Assembly: GCF_036014195.1 (NCBI RefSeq)
Contig: NZ_CP107918.1
Span: 7,378,001 to 7,442,000, forward strand
Length of the DNA stretch: 64,000 bases
Source: Streptomyces sp. NBC_00442
GTDB taxonomy: Bacteria; Actinomycetota; Actinomycetes; Streptomycetales; Streptomycetaceae
Direction: 5' to 3'
Each line of letters begins with the position of its first letter. Within the stretch, counting starts at the first letter, position 1. A program made the translations under genes and the position numbers. Under the pieces are notes generated by a model. It was not told the DNA's origin. It saw nothing but the letters and a program-made list of their open reading frames with translations, and did no database searches. This document shows positions 34,738-51,163 of this stretch, piece by piece.

Positions 34738-35616
34738 TCAGACGCGGTCGGCCGCGATGAGGACGTACTGGAACGAGCCGTCCTTGTAGGAGTTGATGAA
34801 CGCCTCCTCGATGCCCGTGACGAGCGACGAGGTGGCCCGGAGCTCCCAGTACGGCAGGGTCTCGGGCGTCAGGTCGATGACCGCCTGCGGGACCAGGCGG
34901 TTGTCGGCCATGGCCCGCAGGTATTCACGACGCGAGTGGATGTTGCACTCGAAGTGCGCGTTGATCTGCGAGACCCACTTGGACGGCTGGCCGTACTTGG
35001 GGTTCCAGCAACCGGTGATCGTCACGTACCGGCCGCCGGGGGCGAGGATGCGGGCGTGCTCGGCGAACAGGTCGTGCAGATCGACGTACATGCTCGACTC
35101 GTTGTTCCACGAGCCCGCGGCCTCTCCGGTCGTGAACGGCATGTCCAGCATGTTGCAGACCCGGGACCGCACCGAGCTGTCGATCCCGAGGTCGCGGGCG
35201 CGCTGGTTGGCGAAGTCGGCCTGCTTGGCCGAGAGCGTGACGCCCTCGACCCTGCACCCGAAGCGCTGATGGGCCATGACCATGGAGCCGCCCCGGCCGC
35301 AGCCGGCGTCCACCAGGGTGGCGCCGGGGGCGACGGGCCCGACGTGGTCCAGGAGCAGGTCCGACTGGGCGGACTCCAGGCGGTGGAGCTCCGCGATCAG
35401 CTTCGTGTCCCGGTCGGTGGCGCCCGGCGCTGCGAGCGCCGAGTGGTCGACATCGCCGATGCCGTAGTGGTGGTGGTACAGGCCGTCGACATCGCCGAGG
35501 CGCAGGTTCACCGGCCGGGCCTCGTGGTCCCAGTAACGGGCGATGTCGTCCTGGTAGGGCGTGGCAGGACCGGGGATCGTAGCGGTGCTGGTGGTGGGTT
35601 CGACGTTCGTGGACAC
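34738..35616 (-). CDS. Geranyl diphosphate 2-C-methyltransferase
   Basis: A 292-residue SAM methyltransferase. The N-terminus has YQDDIARYWDHEARPVNLRL and LYHHHYGIGD, characteristic of GPP C-methyltransferase; motif I is LVDAGCGRGGSMVMAHQRFG, and NNESSMYVDL lies in the active-site region. It adds a methyl group at C2 of geranyl diphosphate, the first step to 2-methylisoborneol, and the adjacent upstream gene is the matching cyclase, 16 bp away. It starts at GTG 35616 behind AAAGGAA. Confidence 0.93.
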   Translation of the reverse strand: MSTNVEPTTSTATIPGPATPYQDDIARYWDHEARPVNLRLGDVDGLYHHHYGIGDVDHSALAAPGATDRDTKLIAELHRLESAQSDLLLDHVGPVAPGATLVDAGCGRGGSMVMAHQRFGCRVEGVTLSAKQADFANQRARDLGIDSSVRSRVCNMLDMPFTTGEAAGSWNNESSMYVDLHDLFAEHARILAPGGRYVTITGCWNPKYGQPSKWVSQINAHFECNIHSRREYLRAMADNRLVPQAVIDLTPETLPYWELRATSSLVTGIEEAFINSYKDGSFQYVLIAADRV

Positions 35617-35632
35617 GGTGGGTTTCCTTTGC

Positions 35633-36970
35633 TTACCAGAAGTCGGGCAGTGTGTAGCGGTAGCTGTTGGTCTGATGCCAGTGGTGGTTGCCGTCGACCC
35701 ACGCCGCCACTCCGTGCAGGAACCGGACCACTTGGGGCGCGGGGCAGGCGACGGCCAGGGCGGATGCCTCGGCTTCGAAGTCGTGCATGAGCTCGTTGTG
35801 GACCTCGACCGCCTTGAGGTACGCCTCGCGGGGCCCGCAGCTCTCGCTCTCGGCGATGACCACCGGCAGGTTCAGATGGCGCCCGGGGGCGTCGAGTTCC
35901 TTGGTGTAGGAGTAGAGGTCGTTGACGATGGTGGTGGCGTTGGAGGCGAGCGCGATGACTCTCTGCATGGCGGGCCTGGCATGCAGGTCGGCGGGCAGCT
36001 CGTAGCCGCCGACGGTGTCGGTGATGGTCGGGCAGGGGCGGAAGTTGTTGAACTGACGCATCGCCAGGTACTCCCAGACCTCGGGCATGTACTCCGTCTG
36101 CGCCCACGCGGCCTCGGCGAGGTAGCCCAGGTGCAGACGGGCCATGTCGTGCCGGTAGCGGTCGGCCTGTGAGGCGCTGGCGGCCTCGACGAAGTACTCC
36201 ATGGCCGACCGGTAGGCCCGGCGCGGGGCGTCGCTGAACAGCGACTGAGCCCAGGTCGCCGTGTGTTCCCGCGTGGTGTGGAGCGGGTCGAGAGCGGTGT
36301 GCGCCAGCAGGAGGCGCCCGCCGAGACCCACGGGCGAGCCCCCGTGGTCCTCGCAGTAGCAGTCGTCGAGCGCGTTCTCCGCGGCCATCAGCCGTGTCGC
36401 GAGCATCAGGTGGTCGACGGTCGGGGCGTCGGGGTGGCAGGCCACCATGTAGCGGCCGAGGGCGAACCCGTCGAACTGGTCCTCCCACTCCGGCGGATAC
36501 AGCTCGACCTCGTGCACCGCCCAGTCCTTGATCCTGCGGCTCACCTCCGCCACCCGCACCGGGTCGGGCTCCGCCACCGGATGGTGGTAGAGACCCGGCA
36601 CCGCGGTGCCGCCCGCCTGCGTTTCGATACGGGGCGCAAGGCGCAGGCCGCTCGTTCCCAGCCCGCTGGGGCCGCGCAGGACACGTTCCAGGACCTCGGG
36701 GCTCATGGGCGTCACGCCGTGTGGCCCCGCCGCGGGCAGTTCCGCGAAGCCCGTGTCGTCCGGCAGCGCGCAGGGCTCGGTGACGCGGTCCGCGCCGACG
36801 CCCACGGGCGGGGCGGCGGCCGGTCCGGCGCCCGGAACCGCGGGCGGATCCGGGGCGTCGGCCGAGAGCGGCGGGCAGGTGCCGTCGGCGACGGCCGGCG
36901 CGACGGGTTCCGCTGTCGTGACCTGCGGGACCATGTGCACCTGCACTGGACTGAGGTCGGGGACGGGCAT
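35633..36970 (-). CDS. 2-Methylisoborneol synthase (terpene cyclase)
   Basis: A 445-residue class I terpene cyclase. Residues 1-115 are a Pro/Ala-rich disordered lead, usual for this family. The metal motif is DDCYCED at 202-208 (D-D-x4-D variant) and the NSE triad starts at Asn350 (NDLYSYTKE). The product is inferred from these motifs and from the adjacent geranyl diphosphate methyltransferase: 2-methylisoborneol, an earthy volatile. AAGGAG precedes overlapping ATGs, and the in-frame one is 36970. The EshA shell gene lies upstream. Confidence 0.93.
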   Translation of the reverse strand: MPVPDLSPVQVHMVPQVTTAEPVAPAVADGTCPPLSADAPDPPAVPGAGPAAAPPVGVGADRVTEPCALPDDTGFAELPAAGPHGVTPMSPEVLERVLRGPSGLGTSGLRLAPRIETQAGGTAVPGLYHHPVAEPDPVRVAEVSRRIKDWAVHEVELYPPEWEDQFDGFALGRYMVACHPDAPTVDHLMLATRLMAAENALDDCYCEDHGGSPVGLGGRLLLAHTALDPLHTTREHTATWAQSLFSDAPRRAYRSAMEYFVEAASASQADRYRHDMARLHLGYLAEAAWAQTEYMPEVWEYLAMRQFNNFRPCPTITDTVGGYELPADLHARPAMQRVIALASNATTIVNDLYSYTKELDAPGRHLNLPVVIAESESCGPREAYLKAVEVHNELMHDFEAEASALAVACPAPQVVRFLHGVAAWVDGNHHWHQTNSYRYTLPDFW

Positions 36971-37414
36971 CCATTGCTCCTTGCGTGAGGCGGATTGTTC
37001 CGAGCGCGCCCACCGTGCGCGGAAGGAGTGCGGGACCGGTGAGCCGGGCGCGCGGACGGTGGGGGAGCGGTCGCCACCGGAAGAGGGCCGAGGTCCCGCC
37101 AACGCCGCTCTCGGCAGCGGCACTTGATGCCTCTGCCGCTCAGCGGGCCGCGTGGCGGCGGGCGGGCATCCCGTGGCCGACGCCGCCGGTCGGCGCAGGA
37201 CGACGGGAGGGCGGGCGACGGCGGGGACAGCCATGGGGGGGGTGAGCACCCAGGGGGTCCGGCAGCCTCCATGCGGCACTACACCGGCACCGACACGACA
37301 CCGGCACGCAGGAACGGAGCCGAGCCGATACGCGTGGCTCAACTGGAGCCCATGGCGGACCGGTTGGAAGAGCGCAGGCACCGTGGGCCCTGCTCGTGAC
37401 CTCCCCGGCCGGGG
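36971..37414. other. 444-bp intergenic region upstream of the cyclase
   Basis: No gene recognised. It should hold the cyclase promoter. A 10-base direct repeat ACACCGGCAC (37281-37290 and 37298-37307, 17-bp period) and a run of eight G near 37230 are the only visible structures. Its reading frames lack normal codon bias. Confidence 0.4.
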
Positions 37415-37450
37415 CGGCGGGCGACGGCTCGTCGTGGCCGTCGCCCGCCG
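37415..37450 (-). terminator. Terminator of eshA
   Basis: A perfect 14-bp stem (CGGCGGGCGACGGC with its complement) and an 8-base loop, starting 61 bp after the EshA stop. It suggests the shell gene and the cyclase are separate transcripts. Confidence 0.75.
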
Positions 37451-37511
37451 GCCCCGCCGGCCCTCGCGGGCGGGCACCGGTGGACCAACAGCTGGTGGGC
37501 AGACCCGTGGG

Positions 37512-38924
37512 TCACCGCCAGCGGCTGACTTCCACGTTCTCCAGGACGCCCAGCGCGTCGGGCACCAGGATGGCGGCCGAGTAGTAGGCCGTGACCAGGT
37601 ACGAGATGATCGCCTGCTCGTCGATGCCCATGAAGCGCACGGACAGGCTCGGCTCGATCTCGTCCGGGATGCCCGACTGGCGCAGACCGATGACGCCCTG
37701 TTGGTCCTCGCCGGTACGCATGCAGATGATCGACGTCGTCCGCGTGTCACTCAGCGGGATCTTCCCGCAGGGGTAGATCGGCACTCCGCGCCAGGCCGGG
37801 AGGCGATGTCCGTCGATCTCGACGGACTCGGGCACGAGGCCGCGCTTGTTGCACTCACGGCCGAAGGCGGCGATCGCCTTGGGGTGGGCGAGGAAGAGCT
37901 TGGAGCCGCGGCGGCGCGAGAGCAGCTCGTCCATGTCGTCGGGGCTCGGCACGCCGTCGTGCGGCTGGATCCGCTGCCCGTAGTCGCAGTTGGTGAGCAG
38001 GCCGAACTCGGGGTTGTTGATGAGTTCGTGTTCCTGGCGCTCGCGCAGTGCCTCGACGGTCAGCCTGAGCTGGTGCTCGGTCTGGTTCATCGGCTGGTTG
38101 TAGAGGTCCGCGACCCGGCTGTGGACCTTCAGCACGGTCTGCGCGACGGAGAGTTCGTACTCGCGGGGCGAGCTCTCGTAGTCGACGTACGTGTGGGGGA
38201 TGACCGCTTCGCCGATGTGGCCCGCGGAGAGGTCGATCGCCGCCTCGCCGTACTTGTTGGTCGCCCGGTCCGGCTGGTCGGAGAGGTCGCCGAGGTGTTG
38301 GTTCAGGCTCTCGGAGCGCTCGGCGAGGTTGAGGACGTCCGACCTGGTGAGCTCCAGCACCGTACAGGCCGTGGTGGCGCGGACGGTGTGCTCCCACTGG
38401 GCCTCGGGGTCCACCAGCGCGCGCTCACCGAAGTAGGCGCCGTCCGCGAGGAATCCCAGCTCCGTCTCGTCGCCGTACTGGCCGGTGCCGACCTTCGCCA
38501 CCCTGCCGTGCGCCAGCAGGAACACCCGGTCGGTCGGCGACCCGGCGTTCGCGATGACCTCACCGGCGGCGAACTCGTGCTGCGCGCAGCGGTTCGCCAG
38601 CTCCGTCAGGGCTTCCTCGTCGTCGTAGTCGCGCAGTGCGGGCAGCTCGCTCAGCTCCGCGGGGATGACCTGTACGCGGCCGCCGGTCTGAATGAACTCG
38701 ACCCGGCCGTCCCCGACGGTGTAGCTCAGCCGCCTGTTGACCCGGTACGTACCACCTTGCACCTGGACCCACGGCAGTTTCCGCAGCAGCCAACGGGAGC
38801 TGATCTCCTGCATCTGGGGGGCGGACTTGGTGGTGGTCGCCAAGTTCCGTGCGGCGGCTGTCCCGAGACTCTGCTGGCCACGCGTGGCCGCTCCTGCCGT
38901 CTCCGCACCCGTATCGACCGACAT
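37512..38924 (-). CDS. eshA: EshA: family 2B encapsulin shell protein with cyclic-nucleotide-binding domain
   Basis: A 470-residue protein. The HK97-like encapsulin parts are the N-terminal arm ([20 protein letters not shown]) and the C-terminal half ([60 protein letters not shown]). A Crp-type cyclic-nucleotide-binding domain is inserted at about 105-225 ([20 protein letters not shown], then [15 protein letters not shown]). Family 2B encapsulins are known to sit next to terpene cyclases; the methylisoborneol synthase with its long disordered N-terminus is the likely cargo. EshA of other species affects development and antibiotic production. Confidence 0.92.
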
Positions 38925-39193: not shown

Positions 39194-39655
39194 TCACCAC
39201 GCGAACCAGCCCGGGGTCGCCGTGTAGTCCTGCGGTGCGTAGTCGCACACGGCTCCGTCGAACGGCTCGGCCACGGTGAGGCGTTGCGCCTGCCGTTCGC
39301 CGGCAGCGTCCACGGTGTCGGCGGCCACCAGCAGTGCCAGGACGGTCACCAGACAGCCGGCGACGAGTCGGCGCGAGGCCACCGCGCCGCGGGAATCCGC
39401 GACGATCGCGCAGGCGATCGAGACGACCGGGGCGGCCGCGACGAGGGCCAGGGCGGTCAGCGTCAGGTGGTTCAGGTGGGCGGAGTGGTGGCACAGCGTA
39501 TACCGGCGCCCCGTCCGCGCCCCCTGCCAGCGTTCCCAGAAGGCGATCGCGCCGAACAGACAGCCCGCGGCGACCAGTTGCCAGGAATGAAAGGTGTAGC
39601 GGTGCGTGGTGTCAGGTTCCGGTATGTCCGCGCCCGTGGTGGGTGTGCCGCCCAT
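39194..39655 (-). CDS. Hypothetical membrane protein
   Basis: A 153-residue protein with a first hydrophobic stretch near 25-42 (WQLVAAGCLFGAIAFW), a pair of helices (HLTLTALALVAAAPVVSIACAIVA and LVAGCLVTVLALLVAADTV) and an outside C-terminal tail with one Cys. I do not recognise a family. A good AGGGGGAG site precedes the ATG. It stands alone between eshA and the SCO4402-like gene on the same strand. Confidence 0.6.
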   Translation of the reverse strand: MGGTPTTGADIPEPDTTHRYTFHSWQLVAAGCLFGAIAFWERWQGARTGRRYTLCHHSAHLNHLTLTALALVAAAPVVSIACAIVADSRGAVASRRLVAGCLVTVLALLVAADTVDAAGERQAQRLTVAEPFDGAVCDYAPQDYTATPGWFAW

Positions 39656-39757
39656 TGCTCCCCCTGTCCGATAGAGCCCGCACCCATGATTACGGGCGTC
39701 TTGCCATGGCCGATCAGGACCGTGCTCTCGACGCTCCGCCGGTCCCGCGCCGGTGGC

Positions 39758-40162
39758 TCAGGCCCCGGATCCGCTCGGCCGCGCCGCGGCCTTGAGGTCG
39801 TTGGTCACCATCACCTGGGCCAGCCTGGCCGCGATAGCGACGACGGACTCCCACGCGGGGGCCTGGATGTAGTCCTCGTCCGGGGCGTCCCGGCCCACGG
39901 CGGACTCCACGACGCCGTAGGCCTCTCCCAGCTGTCGCATCAGGGTGACCTCCTCCTCCGTGCGCAGACTCCGGCCCAGCCAGGGCGCGGGGTCGGCGGC
40001 GTCGCAGAAGTCGTCGAAAAGAACGGTGACCACGTAGGTCAGCGTCTCGAACTCCTCCCGGCACAGCCACACTTCTCGCTGCCACGAAGGGGTCGCGAGG
40101 GCGAGGACCGCCGGCACGAGATGGAGCCGGAAGACGGGGAATTCGATGCCGTGATCTGCCAC
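39758..40162 (-). CDS. SCO4402-like hypothetical protein
   Basis: A 134-residue soluble protein. The pattern VPAVLALATPSWQREVWLCR, then LTYVVTVLFDDFCDAADPAPW and EEEVTLMRQLGEAYGVV resembles, from memory, the Streptomyces SCO4402 family of unknown function. GGAG lies upstream of the ATG. Before the transposon inserted, this gene was divergent with the inositol-monophosphatase-like gene now at 43982, with about 150 bp between them. Confidence 0.6.
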   Translation of the reverse strand: MADHGIEFPVFRLHLVPAVLALATPSWQREVWLCREEFETLTYVVTVLFDDFCDAADPAPWLGRSLRTEEEVTLMRQLGEAYGVVESAVGRDAPDEDYIQAPAWESVVAIAARLAQVMVTNDLKAAARPSGSGA

Positions 40163-40304
40163 TCCGTGAGTGTACTGATCCGTACTGATCCCCGAATCCC
40201 GGCTCTTGCCCGGCGCATCGTGGTCGGACGACAGCTCCGCACGCCCCCGGTGCGGCGCAACGGTTCACCGATCGCCAAAACCGTCCTCGGCGCCGCGGGC
40301 GGGC

Positions 40305-40309
40305 CAGTA
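40305..40309 (+). repeat. Left target-site duplication CAGTA
   Basis: Five bases CAGTA directly before the left inverted repeat, repeated exactly at 43967-43971. A 5-bp duplication is the Tn3-family standard. Confidence 0.85.
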
Positions 40310-40347
40310 GGCCCTGTCCTCGTATAGCTGCGGCCAGGTGGCGAGTA
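40310..40347 (+). repeat. Left 38-bp terminal inverted repeat
   Basis: Begins GGCCCTGTCCTCGTATAGC, then TG, then CGGCCAGGTGGCGAGTA. It matches the right end in 36 of 38 positions. Confidence 0.88.
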
Positions 40348-40433
40348 ACGCTGAGTGATATTCCGGGCTGTCGTTTCCCCTTGTTGGCCGTCTCGTTGAG
40401 CTGAATGGGTGATCTCGGCGAGAGGGCGGGCGG

Positions 40434-41180
40434 GTGCGGCAGGATTGGGAGCCGGAAGACCTGATCGAGGTCTGGACGCCACTCGAAGACGACATGAAGA
40501 AGGTACGGACAAGTCGGGGGCGACCGGCTCGGGTTCGCGCTGCTGCTGAAGTTCTTCGAGGTGGAGGCCCGGTTCCCGGAGTCGGCCGGGGAGGTTCCGG
40601 CCGCCGCGGTGGAGTACGTGGCCCAGCAGGTGAAAGTGCCGGCGGAGGCGTGGGCGGCGTACGACTGGCAGGGTGATCGGATCAAGCGGCATCGCAAGGA
40701 GATCCGGGCTGCGTACGGATTCCGGCCGAACACCGAGGAGGACCAGGAACGGCTGGCCGGGTGGCTGACTGCTGAGCTGTGCCCGGTGGAGCTGTCGCGG
40801 GACCGGCTGGCGGCCGCGGTGGTGGCCCGCTGCCGGAACGACTGCATCGAGCCACCAGCTCCGGGACAGGTGAAGCGGTTGGTCGGCAAGGCGATCAGGG
40901 ACTTCGAGGCGCAGTTTTGCCACAGCACGCTGGCCCGGCTCAGCCGCTCGACCTGCTCGCGGCTGGAGGAACTGATCGCAGGCGACACGGTCCAGGGAGT
41001 CGACGGCGCCGGATCCGTGGCCGGCGGCGGCCGGTCGCACTTCACCCCTGGACCCACGTGAATCCCTACGGCCGGTTCGAGCTGGACATGAGCAGACACC
41101 TCGACCTGGACCTGACCGACCGGGCCGCCGTGCCCGCGCCGCGCGCCCCCGAGGGCAGACCAGCGGCGGCCCCGGAGTGA
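40434..41180 (+). pseudogene. Tn3-family transposase remnant (DUF4158 N-terminus plus C-terminal tail)
   Basis: A GTG at 40434 opens with MRQDWEPEDLIEVWTPLEDD, the DUF4158 start of actinobacterial Tn3 transposases. Between about 40500 and 40535 the frame shifts; the new frame reads GDRLGFALLLKFFEVEARFP and continues to about residue 170 (LARLSRSTCSRLEELIAGD). The coding sense then jumps to THVNPYGRFELDMSRHLDLD in another frame, the usual C-terminal tail of these ~1000-residue enzymes. The catalytic DDE core is therefore absent: an internal deletion of more than 2 kb plus a frameshift. Confidence 0.8.
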
Positions 41181-41325
41181 GGAACTGGGGCTCGGATCGC
41201 CTACGAACAGCATCTGGCCACCAGCACCCTCGTCGCATAACGACGCGAACAGGTGTCCACTTCACTGGGCAAGGCCCGACCGGAACTTCATGGTTCCGCG
41301 CCTCACCGCGTCCATGGCAGATACC

Positions 41326-41940
41326 TCAGGTGGTCAGACCGGCGCTGGTCAGCCAGATGTGTTCGCATGTCGCCGACGCATCTTGGAGCTTCTCGCGGGA
41401 TTCCTGTGAGGCGTGGTAGAAGGTCCGTTCGATCATCCAGCACAGGGCGCGTGCCATCGCCGGGGCCTGGTCCGGTGCAGTGCCGGCCTGGACGCCGGCG
41501 CGTTCCAGGACGGCGGTGATAGCCGCGATGAACAGGTCAGCCGTGTGGTTCCACAGCTCGCCGATCTCCGGCACGGTCAACGACAGGTCGATCGCCGTGC
41601 GCATGACCAGGCCGTGCTCATTCCACAACTCGACCGTGCGCTGCATGGCTGCGGCGATGGCCCGGCGCGGCTCGTCGGCCTCCGCGGTGGCCCTCGACCG
41701 CTCCCACAGGTGCTCGACGGTTCGGGCCACGAGTGCCGTGACCACTTCTTGCTTGGATCCGTAGTAGAAGTACAGCGCGCCGCGGGTGATGCCGGCGCCC
41801 TGGGCGATGTCGGCGACGGTCATGGCGTCGTAGCCCTTGTGCGCCAGCAGGGCCTCGCAGGTGTCGAGGATGGCCCGCTCCCGGGCGTCGCCCTTGCGCT
41901 CGGCGGCGCGACGGCTCCGCGCGGGGTGGTGGCCGGGCAT
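41326..41940 (-). CDS. TetR-family regulator, transposon passenger
   Basis: A 204-residue regulator. The HTH is ILDTCEALLAHKGYDAMTVA, DIAQGAGITRGALYFYYGSK; the C-terminal ligand domain has LVMRTAIDLSLTVPEIGELW and ALCWMIERTFYHASQE, resembling EthR-type repressors. Its ATG shares one base with the stop of the SDR gene (TGATG), so the two are translationally coupled. It probably represses the SDR-TetR transcript in response to a small molecule that the SDR modifies. Confidence 0.85.
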   Translation of the reverse strand: MPGHHPARSRRAAERKGDARERAILDTCEALLAHKGYDAMTVADIAQGAGITRGALYFYYGSKQEVVTALVARTVEHLWERSRATAEADEPRRAIAAAMQRTVELWNEHGLVMRTAIDLSLTVPEIGELWNHTADLFIAAITAVLERAGVQAGTAPDQAPAMARALCWMIERTFYHASQESREKLQDASATCEHIWLTSAGLTT

Positions 41941-42788
41941 CAGAGCTGCGCGCCGTCGGCGAAGTCGGTCGTACGGGAGAGTGTCTCCCATGCGCGGATG
42001 TCCTCGTCCACGGCCGTGCGGGCGGCGGTGACCAGTCGCAGCGCGTCCGAGCCCAGGACGAGGTGGGCCGGCGGGCGCTCGACCGAAGTGATGTGCACGA
42101 GGGCGTCCCCGGCTTTGGCTGGGTTGCCCAGCTGGTTGCCGCTGGCCTTCTGTCGCGCTTCGCGGATGGGGGTGAACAGCTCGTCGTAGTCATCGACGGT
42201 CCGCGCGGCGCGTGTCATGGACCGTCCGGCCCAGTCGGTGCGGAAGGAGCCGGGCTCGATCGCCGTCACGTGGATGCCGAACTGCGCGACTTCCTTGCCC
42301 AGCGCCTCGAGGATGCCTTCCAGGGCGAACTTGCTGCCACAGTAGGCGGACATGCCGGGCACGGCCATGAGCCCGCCCATGGAGGTGACGGCCATCAGGT
42401 GTCCGCGGCGACGTCGGCGCATGTGGGGCAGCGCCGCCCGCAGCGTGGCCACCGCCCCGAACACGTTGACCTCGAACTGCCGCCGCACCTCGGCCAGCGG
42501 GGTTTCCTCGAAGGTTCCCTCCAGGCCGTAGCCGGCGTTGGCGACGACGACATCCAAAGGGCCGACGCTCTGCTCCACCTCCGCGACCACACGGGGGACG
42601 GCGTCATCGTCCGTCACGTCCAGCAGGTAACCGTGAGCGTTACCGGGCCTGAGCCCTTCGAAGGCCCGCAGGTCCTCCTCGGAGCGGACTGTGCCGACGA
42701 CGGTATGACCTGCGGCCAGGGCAGCCTCGGCGAAGGCACGTCCGAGGCCCGTGCTGACGCCGGTGATGAGCCAGTTCTGCTCTTGCAC
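41940..42788 (-). CDS. Short-chain dehydrogenase/reductase, transposon passenger
   Basis: A 282-residue classical SDR: cofactor motif WLITGVSTGLGRAFAEAALA (TGxxxGLG), structural NAG in VVANAGYGLEG, Ser in AVTSMGG, and the catalytic YCGSK (Y-x-x-x-K). The C-terminal part (PGSFRTDWAGRSM) follows the usual pattern. It starts at GTG 42788 with GGAGG close upstream. The substrate is unknown. It is co-transcribed with the TetR gene; two copies of TGTCGATT in its upstream region are a candidate operator. Confidence 0.88.
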   Translation of the reverse strand: MQEQNWLITGVSTGLGRAFAEAALAAGHTVVGTVRSEEDLRAFEGLRPGNAHGYLLDVTDDDAVPRVVAEVEQSVGPLDVVVANAGYGLEGTFEETPLAEVRRQFEVNVFGAVATLRAALPHMRRRRRGHLMAVTSMGGLMAVPGMSAYCGSKFALEGILEALGKEVAQFGIHVTAIEPGSFRTDWAGRSMTRAARTVDDYDELFTPIREARQKASGNQLGNPAKAGDALVHITSVERPPAHLVLGSDALRLVTAARTAVDEDIRAWETLSRTTDFADGAQL

Positions 42789-42849
42789 TGTTCCTCCAGA
42801 GAGGTCTTGCGAGGAGCCGGGCCGCTCCTTCACCAGAAAGTCTACACAG

Positions 42850-42878
42850 TGTCGATTTTTACCGTCACCATGTCGATT
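42850..42878. promoter_or_regulatory. Direct repeats TGTCGATT in the SDR/resolvase intergenic region
   Basis: TGTCGATT occurs at 42850-42857 and 42871-42878, 21 bp apart, two helical turns. It could be the operator of the passenger TetR or part of the resolvase res site. Confidence 0.4.
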
Positions 42879-42918
42879 CTGGTAGTGCTCAAGGGATGGA
42901 GTACTCAAGGTCATCCGC

Positions 42919-43830
42919 GTGCCCCGCACCGCCCGAATCGGCGCCGCCAAGGCCCAGCAGCCAGGCCGTCAACCAGAACCGCACCCCGATCACCACAGGG
43001 ACACCCAGCGAGAAGAGGACCCGGGCACCTCCAGCCGCCTCCACCCTCTCCAGCGCCCGAAGTTCCGAGCGCTCCTCGACTACGCCCGGCCCGGCGACAC
43101 CGTGCACATCTCCGAGATGTTCCGCCTCGTACGCGGAACCGGCCACCTCCTTGACGTACTCGACGTCCTCCACCGCGACCGCCTTGCCCTGCGCATCCAC
43201 GACGGGGCGTTCTCCGCGATGGATCTCACCGCCCGCCACCAGCGCACCGGAGAACCGCTGTCCACGGTGAAGTTCGTGGTACAGACCCTCGCGGCCGCCG
43301 GCGAACTCCAGCGCGACCTCCAGCGAGAGCTGACCTACGACGGACTGCGCGCCGCCGAGACCAAAGGCAACAAGGGAGGACGCCGCCCCGCTGTGGCGGC
43401 CGACGAGACCGGCGCCGTGCGCACCGCGTACCTGGAAGGCCGCTCCATCGCCGCCCTCGCCCGCGACCACGGTGTCAGCCGCGGCGCCATCCGCACAGCT
43501 GTAGCCGACCTCCTGCCCGAGCACACGGCCGCCGACCCTGACGCCTCCGCCCGGGAACTGCCGGTCACCCTCGACATGCCGGGCAAGGTCGCCGACTTCC
43601 TCCGCGCCGCCGAGCTGGACGACATCGAGCGGGCCGCGCTCGACCAGGGCGTGACCGTACGGCGCGGCCTGGGCTACACCCTGCGGGTCAGCGCCGTCCC
43701 CGGCGTGCACCGTCAGCTTCTTGACCGCTGCCAGCCGCTCGACGGCGGCCACGGCGCGGTCCCGGCTCAGCGCAAGGCCCGCCGCGAGTACGAGAACCGC
43801 GTCAGCGCGCTCGCACCGACCGGACCATGA
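42919..43830 (+). pseudogene. Serine resolvase (TnpR-like) with damaged N-terminus
   Basis: From about 43060 the frame encodes a standard resolvase body: RPKFRALLDYARPGDTVHIS, MFRLVRGTGHLLDVLDVLHR, STVKFVVQTLAAAGELQRDL, KGNKGGRRPAV and an HTH (RSIAALARDHGVSRGAIRTA). The upstream part of this frame lacks the RVST-type catalytic serine segment; a resolvase-like TTGTPSEK stretch appears in another frame at about 43000. So the catalytic serine region seems frameshifted away. A ~95-residue C-terminal extension of unknown role follows the HTH. It could be an intact divergent protein, but an inactive one is more likely. Confidence 0.65.
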
Positions 43831-43928
43831 TCGTTCTCAGCGCCAGCCGCTGTAGCAGTCCCGAGGCTGTAAACGACGCTCGGCGCTGATAGACCGCCGA
43901 GACCGCAGCCCAGAACGCTACACAGGGC

Positions 43929-43966
43929 TACTCGCCACCTGGCCGTGGCTATACGAGGACAGGGCC
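43929..43966 (-). repeat. Right 38-bp terminal inverted repeat
   Basis: The reverse complement of this end begins GGCCCTGTCCTCGTATAGC, then CA, then CGGCCAGGTGGCGAGTA, matching the left end at 36 of 38 positions. Confidence 0.88.
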
Positions 43967-43971
43967 CAGTA
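43967..43971 (+). repeat. Right target-site duplication CAGTA
   Basis: Identical to 40305-40309. Its last two bases are also the first two of the TAGTGT -10 box of the next gene. Confidence 0.85.
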
Positions 43972-43975
43972 GTGT
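43970..43975 (+). promoter_or_regulatory. -10 box of the IMPase-like gene at the transposon edge
   Basis: TAGTGT, 6 bases, then ATG 43982: a leaderless layout. The -35 region now falls within the transposon's right inverted repeat. Confidence 0.5.
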
Positions 43976-43981
43976 GACCGC

Positions 43982-44779
43982 ATGATCACCTCATACGCGT
44001 GCCTCGACGACACCGAGGTCGCGATAGCGGCGGCGCGCGCCGGAGCGGACGTGGTGCGCGGCATGTATGGCGGGCGACTCGCCCGTGTGGACAAGGGTGC
44101 CGGGGACTTCGCCACCGCGGCCGACTTGGCGGCGGAGGAGGCCATCCTCGGCGTCATCCGTGCGGCACGGCCCGATGACGGGATGCTCGGCGAAGAGGGC
44201 GGCCGCCAGGGGGCCGCCGACTCCGCGCGGGAGTGGCTGGTGGATCCTCTGTGCGGCACCCTGAACTATGCCGTCGGGAACATGCTGGTGGCCGTCAACG
44301 TGGCGCTGCGCGGCGGGTCGGCGGCCGTGGCCGACCCGTTCGCGGACGAGGTCTTCGTTACCGACGGGCAGAGCGCCTGGGTGCGCCACGAGGGCTCCGA
44401 CACGCCCCTCGCACCCACCCCGGCGACCCGGCTTGTGGACCTCAACCTGGACCCGCCCTTCCCCGGCGCCCCCGGGTTCCGTGCCGTGGACGTGCTGGCC
44501 CACGCCGGATTCGCGGCACGGTTCCGCCCGCGCGTGGTGTCCACGAGCCTGGCGCTGGCCTGGGTCGCGGCCGGCAAGCGGGCGGCGTACCTCACCGATG
44601 GGGGCGACCTGTCCGGGAGCGTGCACTTCGCCGCCGGAATAGCGTTGTGCCGGGCCGCCGGCTGTGTGGTCACCGGCATCGACGGGGCTCCCGTCGGCCC
44701 GCAGGGCCGGGGCCTCGTGGTGGCCGCCGACGCCGAGACCCACGGGCAGCTGATGTCGATCATCAAAGGGCGGGGCTGA
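43982..44779 (+). CDS. Inositol-monophosphatase-family protein with altered metal motif
   Basis: A 265-residue member of the IMPase/FBPase fold: AAEEAILGVIRAARPDDGML with GEEGG (first metal Glu pair), then WLVDPLCGTLNYAVGNML. In active enzymes that motif is D-P-x-D-G-T; here residue 91 is Cys instead of Asp. The late WDxAAG element reads SVHFAAGIALCRAAG, with no W-D. Loss of two metal ligands suggests altered chemistry or a non-catalytic role. The promoter is interrupted by the Tn3 element directly upstream. Confidence 0.8.
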   Translation: MITSYACLDDTEVAIAAARAGADVVRGMYGGRLARVDKGAGDFATAADLAAEEAILGVIRAARPDDGMLGEEGGRQGAADSAREWLVDPLCGTLNYAVGNMLVAVNVALRGGSAAVADPFADEVFVTDGQSAWVRHEGSDTPLAPTPATRLVDLNLDPPFPGAPGFRAVDVLAHAGFAARFRPRVVSTSLALAWVAAGKRAAYLTDGGDLSGSVHFAAGIALCRAAGCVVTGIDGAPVGPQGRGLVVAADAETHGQLMSIIKGRG

Positions 44780-44848
44780 GGCGCGCCCCGAAGTCCGGGC
44801 GTTCCGCCCTGCCTCGCCCCGGCGGGGTGAGCGGTCCGCGCATGCCGC

Positions 44849-45334
44849 TCAACGGGGCTTCGGCCGGGCGGAAACGCCCGGCACGGAGGGCGGCCGGGCG
44901 GAAACGCTCGGCGTGGAGGGCGGGCAGGCGTCGAGGGGGCGGCTGGTCACGTGCGCGGCGCCCAGCGCCGTGAAGGTGTAACACTGCGCCCAGCCGGAAG
45001 TCGCGACCTGCACCACGAGATCGGTGCGGTTGGCTTCGCGGGTCAGCGACAACGGGGGCCGGTCGCCCAGGACTTGGGCCACTTCCCGATCGGTGAGCAC
45101 GCCATCGGCGTCGGCTCGTTCCAGGGCGCCCCTGAGCTGTTCGGCGGCCGACACGACAGAGTTCTTCCCGTCACGGTCATGCTCCGCCTGGACGTGGTGC
45201 AGCGTGAGGAAGATCCAGGCCAGCAGACCCACGGCGAGCAGGAAACAGACCAGAAGGATCATGCCGAGACAGCCGGCCGTCCGGGCGAGAGGCCCGGACG
45301 GCCGGCTGTCATGGCCTTGAGCGGCAGGAATCAC
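44849..45334 (-). CDS. Hypothetical single-pass membrane protein
   Basis: A 161-residue protein: a short N-terminus, one membrane helix (CLGMILLVCFLLAVGLLAWIF, about 23-43), an extracytoplasmic region of ~85 residues with one Cys pair (CYT...DAC), and a Pro/Ser-rich tail built on a ~30-bp DNA repeat present twice (SVSARPPSVPGVSARP). GTG 45334 lies 4 bases after the stop of the large SGNH protein gene, so translation is probably coupled. I do not recognise a family. Confidence 0.65.
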   Translation of the reverse strand: MIPAAQGHDSRPSGPLARTAGCLGMILLVCFLLAVGLLAWIFLTLHHVQAEHDRDGKNSVVSAAEQLRGALERADADGVLTDREVAQVLGDRPPLSLTREANRTDLVVQVATSGWAQCYTFTALGAAHVTSRPLDACPPSTPSVSARPPSVPGVSARPKPR

Positions 45335-45338
45335 CCGG

Positions 45339-48300
45339 TCATGTTCCCGTATAGCCCGTGTCCTTCAAGACCTTTTCCACGAAGTGCTCGTACCCCGATG
45401 TGCCCGCATTGTTGGGGTGGAAGGCCTCGCGGCTCAGGCAGGACTGACCGATGCCGGGCGCCGAGATGCATTTGGAGTAGGGGTCGCCCGGGTGAAAGTC
45501 TCCGTCACCGTTGGGCCCCAGCACGATCTTGTTGATCCACTCCTCGCTGTCACAGCCGCCGTGCCCGACGAACCAGTCGATCGGGTTGGCATACGTCACG
45601 TTGTAACCCATGCCCTTGAGCTCGTCCACCTCCTGTTTCTGGGAGGTGTCCATGTAGTTGGCGAGCGTGGCCAGAGCGGCCGCCTCGCTGCCGTCGAAGA
45701 ACCAGGAGCCCGTGCACTTGACCGTACGGCTGAGCACCTCCGGATATCCGACCAGGACGACCCTGGCGTTCGGGGCACGCTGAGTGATGACCCGGAGGGT
45801 GTTGCCGATGTCCGTCTTCGTCTTGTCGATCAGTCCCTTGTATTTGGTGAGGAACTCGTCGGTGGCGCAGTTCGTCGGGAACGCGCAGTCGCTGACCGCG
45901 TCGACGAAGGCACCGTAGTTGTTGCCCCCGGCGGTGAGGGTCACCAGCGTGGTGTCCTTCGTCAGGACGCCGGAGTCGGTTTGCGGTATCTCCCGGAACT
46001 CGCCTTCGGCGGCGGAGACATCACCGGTCTGCCAGTAGGCGGTGGTGGCGCGTCCGTCGACCTCGGTCGACCAGGCGCCGGAACAGGCGACGAATCCCAG
46101 CTCCGCACTCGGACTGAAGTTGTCGGACAGTGTCGCCAGGTTCGCGGGCATGCCCGGCAGCACCAGCTTGCGCGGCCAGGCGTTGGCGCTGCGGCGACAG
46201 GCGTTCCAGTTGATGGTGCCGTGGTCCTGGTCGGTCGAGCTGTCGTACGCGCCCGCTCCCTCTCCGGAGGAGTAGGAGTCACCCAGGGAGGCCACGATGT
46301 GCTGCGGCTTGGCGGACAGCCACTGGAAACCGACCGCGTCCCAGGCGATGTCGTTGTCGGCCTGGCCCTCAGCGGTGTAGTTGGACAGCGTCACGCCCTG
46401 GAAGTCGGATCCGGCGGTGAAGTGGTAGATCCCCAGACTCACCCACTTGTTCTCGTGGGAAATGGCGTTGATGGTCCTGTTGTGGGTGGTGCCGTCACCC
46501 AGGTGGATGGTGTAGACGGCTTGCTGACTCGCGGATCCCGTGTCGGGCAGGTGCACCAGCACGCGAGTCCACGACGTGCGCTGGGAGTTGAGCTTCCAGG
46601 TGCCCGTCGCCGCCATCGTTCCGCCGGCAGTGCCCGGATTGATGTCGGGGTCGCTGACGCTCGCGGACGCTCCGTGGGCGAAGTCACGGGCGTGGGCGTA
46701 CCAGAAGTGGTCGCCGAACCCGCCGCCGATCTGATGGAGATCACCCTTGGCCTCGTAGTGCCCCTGGGAGTCGGCGTTGAACTGGAGCCCGAAGGTGCCG
46801 GAGTTGGTCCAGCCCGTTTTGCCGCAGCCATCGGTGAACGTGGGAACGCTGCTGGGCACGTCGTCCACGATCGTGGCCCCCAGACCGGCGTTGTCGCACA
46901 TCGTGCCCGGTCCGTTGTTGCCGTTGCCGAGTTCGGGCTTGAGCGTCTTGTAGGTCAGGTACTCGTGCCCGCAGCTGGTGGGGCAGTCGACCTTCCACGT
47001 GGTCTGCGCGGCGTGGTACCAGAACGGGGGGTCGCAGGTCGGCCCCTTGTGGTCGAGTTCGCAGCGCGGCGGGGCGGTGGGGTCGCAGGCGTTCTCCGTC
47101 GGCTTGCAGAAGACGTCGACGCCGGGTTTGACGGTGGAGCGGGTGGCGTCGGAGCTCCACCAGGCGGGGGAGTAGCCGGCGGTGTTGCCCTTGTTGGCGA
47201 CGCCGGTGTCGGCATAGGAGCGGCCGGTGTCGATGGGCCAGGCGCCCCAGCCCAGGACCTTCTCCTCGTACGACCACTGCTGCGGATGGGCGGCGTCCGC
47301 GTAGCTGTTGCCGTCGAGGAAGGCGTGCCGGCTCACCGGGTAGATGGGGTTGGAGGGGTTGTTGAGGTATCCGAGGCCCCAGGGGGCGGTCGGGTTGGCC
47401 GGCTGGTAGTAGTTCATGCCGGAGTTGTAGTTCCACAGGGCGGCGAACCAGTTCTCCGGGGCCGCGGGGTCGTCGGTGTTCAGTTTGATGGCGTTGGGCT
47501 GGGGGCCGACGGTGTGGAGTTCGTTCCACTTCTGCGAGAGCGTCCGGGCGGCGACGGCGATGTTGGAGGTGTAGTCGAGCGCGATGGCCTTCTGCTGGGC
47601 GGCCGGCAGCTCGTTGGGATCGCCGGTCTTCATGCCGTCGGTCTGCTGTCCGATGCCGTATCCGCAGTCGGCCTTGGACCAGTCGATCTGCCAGTGGTCC
47701 TGGGGGTCCTTGGGGGCGCTGGGGTGGCCGTAGAAGCCGTTGGTGCTGGCCAGGGTCGAGCTGGTCTGGCCGGGCAGGGCGCCGCCTTCGGCCTGCCACA
47801 GGTTGGACTCCTGGGTCAGTACGCCGAGCAGGACCTGGGCGGGGATGCGGCCGCCGCTGGTTCCGGCGAGCGCGGGCAGCGGGAACATGCCCTGCGGGTC
47901 GACCGTGCCCAGGCCGTCGGCGGCGCGCCAGCCGCCCTGGCGGACGTAGGCGCTGGTGAGACTGCCCCGGATGGCCATGTCGGCGGCCCACTCGACCTGG
48001 TTGGGGGTCGGCTGGTAGGCCTGCTGCTTCGGGTCGTTGCGCGGCATGGAGCAGACGCGGTCGGTGTCGATGGTGGAGTTGGGGTCACCGGCCGCGGCCT
48101 TGGCGAGCCCGTTCGTGCCCTTCGCTCCTGCGGTCCGGGAACCACCGGTGAGGGCGGGCGAGGCGTTCTTGCCCGTGGCCTTGGGGGTCGCGCCGTCCTG
48201 GCCGGCGGTGAAGGTGATCTTCTTGCCGGTGGACGGCACCTCGGTGGTGACTTGCAGGGGCGCGGCCGCGTCCCACGCGGTGGCCGCGAGCGGGTTGCTG

Positions 48301-49376
48301 ACGTGGCTGCGCAGGCTCTTGGAGACCGCCTGGTCGATGGCGAGGGCGCCGGTGGAGGACACCGTGGCGTCCGCGGCGACCTTCAGCCGTGTCACCGGTG
48401 CGGGCAGCGCGGTGGTGGAGGCGGGCGTGCCGGTGAGGAAGACCCGCCCGGACGTGCCGGCCGCGAGACCCACACTGCCCGTCGGCCCCTGGGCGAACGT
48501 GGTGGTGCGGCCCTTGATGGTGCGGTGGGCGCTGACCGTCCCGCCGGAACGGTCGAGGAAGCTGACGCCGCCTTCGCCGTCGGCCCGCAGCTGGAAGGCG
48601 GGGCCCGAGGTGGTGGTGAGTTCGGTGGCGTGGTCGCCGCGGTCGAAGGAGACCAGCCGGCCGGCGGCGGCGCCCACGACGGTGTCGCCGACGGGGACCG
48701 CCGAGGTGACCTGGAGGTTCTCGGTCTGCTGGTGCGTGACGGTGGCGGTCGTGGTGTCCACCGTCAACAGGCGGGTCTGCGTGTCCTGGTCGCCGCCGAT
48801 CTGGGTCAGGACGGCGGACTCGCCCGAGCCGCAGCCCGGGTTGAAGTAGGCCAGCGTCACCGTGTCGGCCAGCTTGGTCACCTTGCCGTCGGTGAGGTCG
48901 ACGACGGCGGCGAAGCCGCCGTGCTCCATCAGGTCGGGCTTGTTGGTGAAGTCGCGCGGGGCGTAGACGACGACGGCCCGCTTGCCGGATCCGGTCACGC
49001 ACGCGTTCCCGATCCACAGGTCGGTGCCGAAGCCGGGCTCGGACAGCGTGGCCACCGAACGCCACTGGTAGGCCTTGTTGCTGTCGGCGGCCATCACATG
49101 CAGTCCGGAGCCGTCGCCGGCCACCGTCACCGCACGGTCGGCGGACTGCTTCCACGCCTTGGGCAGGACACCGTCCGGGGCGAGCACCCGGGAGGAGTCC
49201 TCCTGACGCGGCGGCTTCGGCTGCCCGGCCCCGCCCGCACCGTCCGGTGCCGCGGCGGGCGCCGTCCGTCCGGCCGGCTGTCCTGCCCAGGCCTGGCCGC
49301 CCTGGGTCGGACCGAGGACCGCCAGGGCGACCGTGGCCACGGCCAGGGGTATGCGTGCTCTGTGTTTCGATCTCAA
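45339..49376 (-). CDS. Giant secreted protein: propeller-like region, lytic-transglycosylase-like domain, golvesin-like domain, SGNH hydrolase
   Basis: A 1,345-residue exported protein with a Sec signal (~1-31). Residues ~70-390 repeat propeller-like strands. About 445-760 fits the SLT lysozyme fold: Glu523 in TQESN, YGIGQ (573-577) and NYNSG (~649-653) mirror the E-S, G-L-M-Q and Y-N-A-G motifs. Then come a Cys-rich linker, a golvesin/Xly-type sandwich (~910-1010) and an SGNH hydrolase with the block-I serine 1034 (GDSYSSGEG), block III TAGGNNYG, and His1320 (EAFHPN, Glu in the usual Asp place). This suggests combined cell-wall cleavage and ester removal. Confidence 0.8.
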   Translation of the reverse strand: MRSKHRARIPLAVATVALAVLGPTQGGQAWAGQPAGRTAPAAAPDGAGGAGQPKPPRQEDSSRVLAPDGVLPKAWKQSADRAVTVAGDGSGLHVMAADSNKAYQWRSVATLSEPGFGTDLWIGNACVTGSGKRAVVVYAPRDFTNKPDLMEHGGFAAVVDLTDGKVTKLADTVTLAYFNPGCGSGESAVLTQIGGDQDTQTRLLTVDTTTATVTHQQTENLQVTSAVPVGDTVVGAAAGRLVSFDRGDHATELTTTSGPAFQLRADGEGGVSFLDRSGGTVSAHRTIKGRTTTFAQGPTGSVGLAAGTSGRVFLTGTPASTTALPAPVTRLKVAADATVSSTGALAIDQAVSKSLRSHVSNPLAATAWDAAAPLQVTTEVPSTGKKITFTAGQDGATPKATGKNASPALTGGSRTAGAKGTNGLAKAAAGDPNSTIDTDRVCSMPRNDPKQQAYQPTPNQVEWAADMAIRGSLTSAYVRQGGWRAADGLGTVDPQGMFPLPALAGTSGGRIPAQVLLGVLTQESNLWQAEGGALPGQTSSTLASTNGFYGHPSAPKDPQDHWQIDWSKADCGYGIGQQTDGMKTGDPNELPAAQQKAIALDYTSNIAVAARTLSQKWNELHTVGPQPNAIKLNTDDPAAPENWFAALWNYNSGMNYYQPANPTAPWGLGYLNNPSNPIYPVSRHAFLDGNSYADAAHPQQWSYEEKVLGWGAWPIDTGRSYADTGVANKGNTAGYSPAWWSSDATRSTVKPGVDVFCKPTENACDPTAPPRCELDHKGPTCDPPFWYHAAQTTWKVDCPTSCGHEYLTYKTLKPELGNGNNGPGTMCDNAGLGATIVDDVPSSVPTFTDGCGKTGWTNSGTFGLQFNADSQGHYEAKGDLHQIGGGFGDHFWYAHARDFAHGASASVSDPDINPGTAGGTMAATGTWKLNSQRTSWTRVLVHLPDTGSASQQAVYTIHLGDGTTHNRTINAISHENKWVSLGIYHFTAGSDFQGVTLSNYTAEGQADNDIAWDAVGFQWLSAKPQHIVASLGDSYSSGEGAGAYDSSTDQDHGTINWNACRRSANAWPRKLVLPGMPANLATLSDNFSPSAELGFVACSGAWSTEVDGRATTAYWQTGDVSAAEGEFREIPQTDSGVLTKDTTLVTLTAGGNNYGAFVDAVSDCAFPTNCATDEFLTKYKGLIDKTKTDIGNTLRVITQRAPNARVVLVGYPEVLSRTVKCTGSWFFDGSEAAALATLANYMDTSQKQEVDELKGMGYNVTYANPIDWFVGHGGCDSEEWINKIVLGPNGDGDFHPGDPYSKCISAPGIGQSCLSREAFHPNNAGTSGYEHFVEKVLKDTGYTGT

Positions 49377-49464
49377 CGTTGCTCCACGACTGGGTGGGGG
49401 GGAATGTGGCGCGGGCCCCGCAGCGCGGCCTCTTCCGGCCCGCCCTGCTGGCCCATCGGGGGGA

Positions 49465-50370
49465 CTATCGGGCCGTAGCGGCCGCGGACGCCTTGCCGAC
49501 CATGTCCTTGTTGGCCTCTCGCACCCCGTTCAGGGCCGCCTGGTTCGCCTTGATGGCCTTCGTCTGAAGGGCCGCCTCCGCGTCGAACCACGTCTTCTCC
49601 ACGTGGGCCCGGGTACGGCACGCGACATCGGCCGTGGCCGTCGCGATTTCCAGGTCCGTCACGGTGCGGGGGTCGTTGAAGCGCGGGTCGTCGTTCGCGT
49701 CCATGGGTTTGGCGTACGCGTAGCCCTTGCCCTTCATGCAGGCGGACCACTGCGCGAAGGCCGCCGTCACCTTCGGGTCCTTCGCGGACTGCACGTACGA
49801 GTCGCCCTTGATCCGCTCCACCAGGTCCGACGACGTCACGGCGGGCACGGTGGCACCGGCCGACTGGGCGCACCCCTGCAACGTGGCCGGGTCGGCACCG
49901 GACTTGTCCACCGCGCCGGCCATCATGGCCCGGTCGTAGGCCTGTTGCTCGGCGGCGTCGGGGTGGTAGCCGCGCTTCGCCACCTGGGCGGCGTCGTGGA
50001 TCCCGTACCGCCAGTCCGTCACGGTCTTGCCGCCGAGGACGGGAAGGTCGGGCGCCGGAACCCACTTCGGGAAACCGGCCCTCTTCATGCAGGCGGCGAT
50101 CACGCTGTCCCGGGTGCTGCCCACCAGGCGTGCGTCGGCCCTGGAGACCAGGTAGGTCTCGATGGGCAGCCGCCACGACGCGGGATCATCCGGATCACCC
50201 GCCGCCGACGGCGCCGCCGGAGCGCCATCGGCACGCGGCTCCGCCCCGGCCACCGGACTGCCGCTCCTGGAGGACGAGTTGGCGGACAGCGCCCCCACAG
50301 TGACGGCCCCCACCGCCGCCGCGGCCATCACCGGAATCGCTATGCGTACCAGCGTCCTGCTGGGATTCAT
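49465..50370 (-). CDS. Secreted or membrane-anchored hypothetical protein
   Basis: A 301-residue protein with an N-terminal signal/anchor (LVRIAIPVMAAAAVGAVTVGAL), a Ser/Pro linker, and a helical outer domain with four cysteines (AACMKRAGF, LQGCAQSAG, SACMKGKGY, VACRTRA). The paired C-M-K-x-x-G-[FY] elements look like an internal duplication. I do not recognise the family. GGGAG and AAGGA precede ATG 50370. It lies 49 bp after the small secreted gene and 88 bp before the giant SGNH protein, as one likely transcript. Confidence 0.65.
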   Translation of the reverse strand: MNPSRTLVRIAIPVMAAAAVGAVTVGALSANSSSRSGSPVAGAEPRADGAPAAPSAAGDPDDPASWRLPIETYLVSRADARLVGSTRDSVIAACMKRAGFPKWVPAPDLPVLGGKTVTDWRYGIHDAAQVAKRGYHPDAAEQQAYDRAMMAGAVDKSGADPATLQGCAQSAGATVPAVTSSDLVERIKGDSYVQSAKDPKVTAAFAQWSACMKGKGYAYAKPMDANDDPRFNDPRTVTDLEIATATADVACRTRAHVEKTWFDAEAALQTKAIKANQAALNGVREANKDMVGKASAAATAR

Positions 50371-50419
50371 TCCTTTTCTCCCCTGTTCTTGTCCACGGAC
50401 GGAAACGGTGAGGTCGGCA

Positions 50420-50899
50420 TCAGGAGGTCCACTGGAATGACGCGTTCTCGTTGTAGACATTCCGGAAGCGATCGTCGTTCTGCTGGGGGCCGATCGCGTC
50501 CTGGTTCCCCTTGTAGCCGCTGTTGTAATACACCCGGGCGGTCCACTTGTTGTGGGTGTTGTCGGCGGAGGCCGCATTGTTCTTGATGTGCTGGGCGGAG
50601 CCGGCCGCGCCGCCTCCGCAGAACAGCAACGGGTGGACATGACCGTCGCCCGGCCGCAGCGCGTCGAAGTCGTAGACGCTGTAGCCGATGTTCCGGTACG
50701 AACCGCCCTCGCCCGAGTTGTAGTAGATGTGGAATGCGAACGGCGAGTTGTACGGGGCTCCGCACAGGACCGAGTTGCTTTCTCCCAGGTTCAACGTGTC
50801 GCCGTCCGGCGGCATGGGCACCGGGGTGTCCGCCACCGCGGGGCCTGCCAGGAGCAGCGCCGCCGCCAGGCCGGCCAGCGCCGATATCGCTCTGCGCAT
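50420..50899 (-). CDS. Small secreted hypothetical protein
   Basis: A 159-residue exported protein: signal peptide MRRAISALAGLAAALLLAGP to about residue 24, then a beta-rich mature domain with two cysteines (SVLCGAPYN, LLFCGGG) and aromatic strands (FAFHIYYNSGEGGSYRNIGY, WTARVYYNSGYKG). The repeated YYNSG motif suggests two similar halves. A related domain could bind carbohydrate, but I cannot name a family. It heads the block of secreted genes that includes the giant SGNH protein. Confidence 0.65.
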   Translation of the reverse strand: MRRAISALAGLAAALLLAGPAVADTPVPMPPDGDTLNLGESNSVLCGAPYNSPFAFHIYYNSGEGGSYRNIGYSVYDFDALRPGDGHVHPLLFCGGGAAGSAQHIKNNAASADNTHNKWTARVYYNSGYKGNQDAIGPQQNDDRFRNVYNENASFQWTS

Positions 50900-51132
50900 G
50901 TCTGTTCGTTCCCTCTCGGTAGGAAAAGTGTGCTGCCCCGCGCAATGGAGGAAGCAAGCGGCTTCCTTTTCCAAGAGCCCCTTCACCGGGCGGAAGTCGC
51001 CGGTTCCTCGTGGCCGGGCCGGTTGCACATTCCTGACCGTGGCGCATGGGGGAGCGGCCAAACGGTAGCCGTCGCCCAGGAAAGTAGGAACGGCCTGAAA
51101 GAACCGGCGTGGCCGACATCGCCCGTTGCCCT
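50900..51132. other. Intergenic region upstream of the secreted-protein operon
   Basis: It should contain the operon promoter. A short hairpin GGAAGC-AAGCG-GCTTCC occurs near 50952. No gene recognised. Confidence 0.4.
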
Positions 51133-51163
51133 CCGGCAGCGGCGGCACCCATTCCGCTGCCGG
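51133..51163 (-). terminator. Terminator of the polyprenyl/MpaB operon
   Basis: A perfect 10-bp stem (CCGGCAGCGG with CCGCTGCCGG) and an 11-base loop, 108 bp after the MpaB-like stop. The gap between contains ATTCCGATGGG twice (51185 and 51225). Confidence 0.6.

Follow-up and report, generated by a model that had tools for sequence, protein, structure and literature searches.

A Tn3-family transposon with decayed transposition genes and a TetR-SDR passenger in Streptomyces sp. NBC_00442

Introduction

Accessory genes in Streptomyces are highly mobile and the vehicles that move them are seldom caught. The locus described here raises the question of whether one such vehicle has been preserved together with its cargo, and how much of it is left. 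It lies at positions 40310-43966 of a 64,000-bp stretch of the genome of Streptomyces sp. NBC_00442 (contig NZ_CP107918.1, positions 7,378,001 to 7,442,000 of the forward strand; the whole stretch is hereafter called the window), where an initial annotation, made from the letters alone, had proposed a complete Tn3-family transposon carrying a TetR-family regulator and an SDR oxidoreductase. I conclude, with a probability that I would put at roughly 0.88, that this is a non-autonomous, passenger-carrying Tn3-family transposon that was inserted with duplication of CAGTA and was internally deleted either afterwards or beforehand. Since the window copy has kept its ends and its scar, and a relative has kept the empty site, a common operon for a regulated oxidoreductase can be linked to a lineage of transposons, and it is this lineage and its traceable cargo that give the finding its value. 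Other genomes and retrieved loci are cited below by handles beginning with G and L, respectively.

Ends, Target Duplication and Empty Site

Direct reading and recomputation agree on an element of 3,657 bp (40310-43966) between CAGTA at 40305-40309 and CAGTA at 43967-43971, bounded by 38-bp terminal inverted repeats (40310-40347 on the plus strand and 43929-43966 on the minus strand) that are identical at 36 of 38 positions, just as the initial annotation had them. Ends of about 38 bp and a 5-bp target-site duplication are features by which the Tn3 family is recognized, and both are present here. A chance inverted repeat was considered as the source of these ends and is ruled out: among 1500 random 38-mers taken from the window, two reached at least 33/38 against an inverted partner and both overlap the transposon ends, the best inverted 38-mer match elsewhere in the window being 31/38; and when the end was searched in the 7.73-Mb genome with up to three mismatches and two positions left free it occurred at exactly two sites, compared with 0 for a reversed control pattern. 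The strongest sampled inverted match in the window besides the transposon ends joins 10369-10631 to 16626-16893, about 6 kb apart, at 29-31/38 per sampled 38-mer. Towards the other end of the chromosome there is also a solo left transposon end, one base short (C1:55259-55304; L088 8260-8305), for which no partner was found in the 17 kb retrieved around it.

A related strain lacking the insertion was expected to show a single CAGTA, and G304 does so. This genome is a close relative, with 97% gyrB identity, the other 21 of the 22 hand-chosen cargo-bearing genomes in which gyrB was measured reaching at most 89%. Its element-free locus reads GGGCGGGC-CAGTA-GT immediately before the phosphatase gene, and synteny with the window extends over the encapsulin gene (92%), the gene at 39194-39666 (79%) and the phosphatase gene itself (85%). 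From the ends, the duplication and this empty site, the most plausible course of events is that a Tn3-type element transposed into the interval separating a DUF7945 gene from an inositol-monophosphatase-like gene and in doing so duplicated CAGTA. No empty site was seen among the 41 genomes that were searched first: the right-flank gene was present in several of them, always with unrelated left flanks, and the DUF7945 gene was not seen next to the phosphatase gene in the loci retrieved at that stage, within 1.5 kb on each side.

Decay of the Transposition Genes

Domain scans with Pfam confirmed a DUF4158 remnant (E 3.3e-19), TetR, SDR and resolvase domains within the element, so that the transposase fragments and resolvase body named in the initial annotation are real and its boundaries are sound, but the word complete has to be given up: tnpA is mostly deleted and frameshifted, and tnpR has lost its N-terminus together with a res-like site. 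On the left, the 5' remnant of tnpA (40434-41046, plus strand, the DUF4158 region) is 79-84% identical in DNA to six relatives with intact tnpA and carries a frameshift at about 40507-40520. It stops at a deletion junction at 41047, with one filler base, at which alignment to L117, L092 and L125 shows a loss of 2,285 bp (2,281 bp with L120 and 2,283 bp with L105 as reference), and alignment to the relatives places the 3' remnant at 41048-41180 (plus strand). The sequence that follows, 41181-41274, also occurs in copies from S. mirabilis and S. diastatochromogenes, which match 41048-41274 at 90%. With the DDE domain of the L117 transposase spanning residues 590-980, and residues 1-207 and 965-1012 kept in the window, nearly the entire DDE domain has been lost.

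On the right, the last part of the cargo segment (42896-43009), common to G360, G304, G235 and G611, runs into a second deletion junction at 43010-43011, where 314 bp comprising the res-like site and the first ~34 codons of tnpR are missing relative to G611. Domain scan and alignment identify what remains (43012-43830, plus strand) as a serine resolvase gene without its N-terminal segment; that segment reads YKRVSTDQQ in L098 and L126 and should be the part in which serine recombinases carry their catalytic serine. The 314 bp absent from the window follow the same cargo in G611 (L184) and contain a dyad, TGTCGTCA-N10-TGACGACA, and the start of tnpR, and related dyads with two and three substitutions precede tnpR in L098 and L126, respectively. 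No such dyad was found in the window element at up to three substitutions, nor in L117 or L105, whose resolvases have another length. The dyad is a likely res site of this type of tnpR. Elsewhere in the same genome, C1:6024584-6024882 (L089 8585-8883) is an internally deleted fragment of a tnpR of the same type, 81-85% identical.

With both deletions filled in, the ancestor would have measured about 6.25 kb and, judging from the relatives, its order would have been left end, tnpA, the TetR-SDR operon on the opposite strand, res, tnpR and right end. A frameshift and two internal deletions, which may have preceded or followed the insertion, have cost the element the greater part of tnpA, the res-like site and the N-terminus of tnpR, and a copy so reduced should be able neither to move itself nor to resolve cointegrates. 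A DDE transposase domain (PF01526) is absent from the window copy, where the N-terminal DUF4158 and short C-terminal remnants persist, and is full in its relatives; a resolvase gene with both its N-terminus and a res site is likewise missing. What remains, matching ends without a functional transposase, defines non-autonomous Tn3 elements of the MIC or TIME type, and the element is filed as such a derivative rather than as an autonomous Tn3 transposon. No match to PF01526 was found in its own genome and hence no helper transposase, yet its ends match a lineage with apparently autonomous members, so that a transposase acting in trans might in principle mobilise it.

The Passenger Operon

The passenger consists of two intact genes on the minus strand that overlap by one base, the upstream one encoding an SDR oxidoreductase of 282 aa (41940-42788) and the other an EthR-like TetR-family regulator of 204 aa (41326-41940). 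Domain scans and structure matches agree on both: the SDR protein belongs to the PRK06180 type and is best matched by 3m1a, a putative dehydrogenase, while EthR is the closest solved structure to the regulator. Upstream of the SDR gene, an alignment of 13 sequences, the window included, reveals a conserved block (42840-42879, minus strand) that is a candidate promoter or operator. The likeliest function, as far as sequence can tell, is that of an autoregulated SDR-TetR operon handling a small carbonyl or alcohol compound. The repressor would bind upstream of the SDR gene of this probably autoregulated bicistron and, given the gene order, the EthR-like class and the conserved upstream block, might come off in response to a small ligand which the SDR enzyme in turn reduces or oxidises. 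In all 11 homologues compared neither protein is interrupted by stop codons and dN/dS is 0.11-0.25, from which it follows that the passenger has been under purifying selection while the transposition genes decayed in the window copy.

A Lineage of Transposons with Ends of the Same Family

The ends are not confined to this one place: the same end family bounds 15 other elements with duplications of their own, and these recurring ends, the intact relatives with a DDE transposase and the single-CAGTA empty site together support the assignment to the Tn3 family. At up to three mismatches the end family is present in 13 of 392 genomes of the genus, NBC_00442 included, and when up to 11/38 mismatches are allowed an end accompanies 28 of the 30 DUF4158 loci retrieved from the genome collection, the exceptions being L112 and L119. 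Leaving aside loci with just one detected end, there are 20 distinct end pairs, the window element among them, and 16 of these show a perfect 5-bp duplication (besides the window: L076, L077, L079, L092, L093, L094, L098, L100, L102, L103, L105, L117, L120, L121 and L127), with 15 different sequences, GTCAC being seen twice and the other 14 once each; L075 (on the same contig as L099), L095, L096 and L114 lack a perfect one. An intact tnpA of about 1,015 aa with DDE_Tnp_Tn3 and DUF4158 domains was found in all six elements scanned (L117, L098, L121, L092, L094 and L100), the L117 and L098 transposases scoring 806 and 828 bits where the NCBIfam cut-off for Tn3 is 500. Open reading frame calls, made here without domain scan, give a split or shortened tnpA in L093, L102, L103, L105 and L120, the 5' part alone was found in L076 and L127, and at most a short stretch is left in L077 and L079.

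The cargo of this lineage is varied, as assigned by Pfam for those proteins that were scanned. The closest parallels to the window element, with the same end subfamily and perfect 5-bp duplications, are L117 (Streptomyces sp. AC512_CC834, 5,832 bp), which carries a MarR regulator and an SDR gene, and L127 (Embleya sp. NBC_00888, 6,677 bp), in which LysR, epoxide hydrolase, SDR-like and FAA hydrolase genes lie beside a DUF4158 tnpA fragment; neither cargo is the TetR-SDR pair, and in L117, unlike in the window element, tnpA is intact and the resolvase has kept its N-terminal domain. L102 (9743-17689, Streptomyces griseus NRRL WC-3645, with a 5-bp duplication) holds virginiamycin-B-lyase-like and hexapeptide transferase genes that look like a streptogramin-inactivation pair, L105 carries cation efflux, L103 a lipase-like protein, and L076 two tandem dehydrogenase-like reading frames (the one scanned being reductive-aminase-like), an alpha/beta hydrolase and a SARP-type regulator. 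L077 (7917-8827) is a mere 911 bp with both ends, a GTCAC duplication and a GNAT acetyltransferase gene as its sole called reading frame. A lineage loaded with streptogramin-inactivation-like, cation efflux, reductive-aminase-like and acetyltransferase cargo is of interest beyond the TetR-SDR pair. The wider proposition is that Streptomyces and its relatives harbour a Tn3 lineage, so far undescribed and with ends beginning GGCCCTGTTCTCGTATAGC, that repeatedly loads small regulator-plus-enzyme operons between tnpA and res-tnpR and helped to disperse the TetR-SDR operon, the window copy being the best-preserved fossil of this vehicle; I consider it an even bet.

Spread of the Cargo and Competing Explanations

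The TetR-SDR pair was correctly placed within a Tn3 unit but is by no means confined to it. At 83-95% DNA identity over at least ~1.47 kb it is carried by 31 of the 391 other genomes searched in the genus (32 of 392, or ~8%, with NBC_00442), and a match of any kind at E <=1e-60, scoring the two best candidates per genome, is present in 61 of 392, own included; an order-wide draw of genomes that overlaps the genus draw gave 55 of 372 at the same threshold, again own included. At least three plasmid records carry it at 87-89% identity, two of them annotated as TetR regulator and oxidoreductase, and none of the best 25 of 343 plasmid matches covers 80% of the element. I examined 34 cargo loci of other genomes, 25 with wide flanks and nine with 1.5 kb on each side. 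The copies in G077, G032 and G002 and a second copy in G364 fall outside this set, as do order-wide copies that include those in G438, G425, G461, G617, G500, G554, G396, G398, G401 and G393 and a second in G619.

Tn3 sequence adjoins the cargo in 11 of the 34 loci, mostly at the same junctions, a figure that is not an unbiased rate since the 25 wide loci were hand-picked, matches reaching beyond the operon being taken first. The junction between the tnpA tail and the cargo is contiguous in G360, G136, G137, G246 and G573, the last part alone is kept in G348 and G611, and a piece of the tail lies near the cargo in G235, G242 (40 bp) and G294 (tnpA residues 801-1003); in G304 the cargo copy has a DUF4158 fragment fused to it, and tnpR sequence stands on the other side of the cargo in G304, G573 and G611. 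Junctions common to other genomes in different settings imply that they predate the window insertion and that the cargo was already a passenger at that time. In 17 of the 22 genomes compared, the cargo is also closer in identity to the window than gyrB is (95 vs 88 in G242, 94 vs 87 in G573 and 93 vs 85 in G619, with a margin of one rounded point in G353, G222 and G292), and it is less close in five (G304, G246, G223, G072 and G235), most strikingly in G304 at 88 vs 97, and this discordance argues for horizontal transfer.

Some observations weigh against the history of insertion and deletion set out above. To the left of CAGTA the empty site of G304 matches exactly for just 8 bp and weakly further out, a short match that is explained by other genes replacing the DUF7945 gene further left in that genome. 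The deleted arrangement was not found with both ends a second time, and transposition of the deleted form itself is therefore hypothetical; around the 25 wide loci, the nine with 1.5 kb flanks and the three plasmid loci no second cargo copy had both ends, the sole end-like matches around the 34 loci being two with 7/24 mismatches, which look like chance. Finally, no Tn3 remnant was detected in 23 of the 34 loci or in any of the three plasmid loci, and many copies of the cargo may therefore have travelled in some other way.

These remnant-free loci (nine of the 34 having been viewed with 1.5 kb flanks) speak for the proposal that the TetR-SDR pair spreads mainly by homologous recombination, plasmids or other elements, the Tn3 link being one early capture whose remnants hitchhike. 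No such ends lie within 8 kb of the three plasmid copies, and among 23 loci compared (19 of the 34, the three plasmid loci and the window) the flanks mostly differ, six flank pairs sharing at least 300 bp. Remnants do occur in almost a third of the loci, however, and erosion of the element ends over time would strip them from older copies; I would give this proposal a little less than an even chance. It is doubtful that the deleted element is itself a mobile cassette of the MIC or TIME type, actively moving in trans: it has kept its two ends and its duplication intact, and short end-bounded relatives without an intact transposase gene do carry duplications (L077 and the 1,363-bp L079), but its own genome has no Tn3 DDE transposase and one pair of these ends, and the deleted form has not been met a second time. 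That an ordinary Tn3 element was inserted first and the operon entered later at this very site, never having travelled by transposon, is highly improbable. In many genomes neither Tn3 remnants nor these ends were detected near the cargo, and the element has been rearranged internally, which would fit such a history; but in different genomic settings the tnpA-tail junction is common at the nucleotide level to the five genomes in which it is contiguous and the cargo adjoins tnpR sequence in three, which contradicts a late local arrival.

Relation to Known Elements

The preferred explanation, a passenger-carrying Tn3-family transposon that has lost its autonomy, has precedents in the literature. 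By its published description, Tn4556 of Streptomyces fradiae is a class II element of 6,625 bp, active in Streptomyces, that is bounded by 38-bp ends and 5-bp duplications; its 994-aa tnpA lies close to the left end and its resolvase, a TnpR of PF00589 type, close to the right one, and its two passengers encode a methyltransferase and an isoprenyl diphosphate transferase (PMC6403206). As far as that description goes, the window element resembles it in being a Streptomyces class II element with 38-bp ends, a 5-bp duplication, two passengers and a resolvase gene near the right end, and differs in its cargo and in having no intact tnpA or tnpR, a distinction drawn from the description and not from end sequence. 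The TIMEs and mosaic non-autonomous Tn3 elements of Pseudomonas have 38-bp Tn3-type ends and 5-6 bp duplications but lack a transposase gene; they may bring along other genes and a resolvase, and have been demonstrated experimentally to transpose (PMC4133298). The window element shares with them its non-autonomous state, its 38-bp Tn3-type ends, a short duplication and the carriage of other genes with a resolvase remnant; it belongs to another host group, its tnpA is internally deleted where theirs is wholly lacking, and it is known from sequence alone where their movement was shown by experiment, the comparison again resting on the published description and not on end sequence. Among the matches listed in a literature text search, mostly titles and the beginnings of abstracts, no described transposon or TetR-SDR cargo of this kind was recognised, and a 19-letter piece of the end sequence had no match in the literature searched. 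Streptomyces Tn3-type elements with 38-bp ends, two passengers and 5-bp duplications are thus already known, a member with this cargo is apparently new, and the passenger is apparently common but undescribed. The lineage might also serve as a genetic tool beside Tn4556.

The Neighbourhood of the Insertion

The insertion point lies 10-15 bp before the start codon of the phosphatase gene (43967-43982), and CAGTA overlaps a TAGTGT box (TAGTCT in G304) that has the look of a -10 element of a leaderless promoter, in which case the transposon end would substitute for the -35 region. In place of 39667-40309, G304 has about 3.3 kb with other genes, and some 6.5 kb of the window on the other side (44773-51267) are absent from the syntenic G304 locus (L191 14152/14252). 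Further to the left, at 35508-38924, a Family 2A encapsulin shell gene (SrpI-like, with a cNMP-binding domain) adjoins a terpene-synthase-like reading frame, an arrangement resembling the 2-methylisoborneol synthase-encapsulin pair, the neighbouring enzyme presumably being that synthase.

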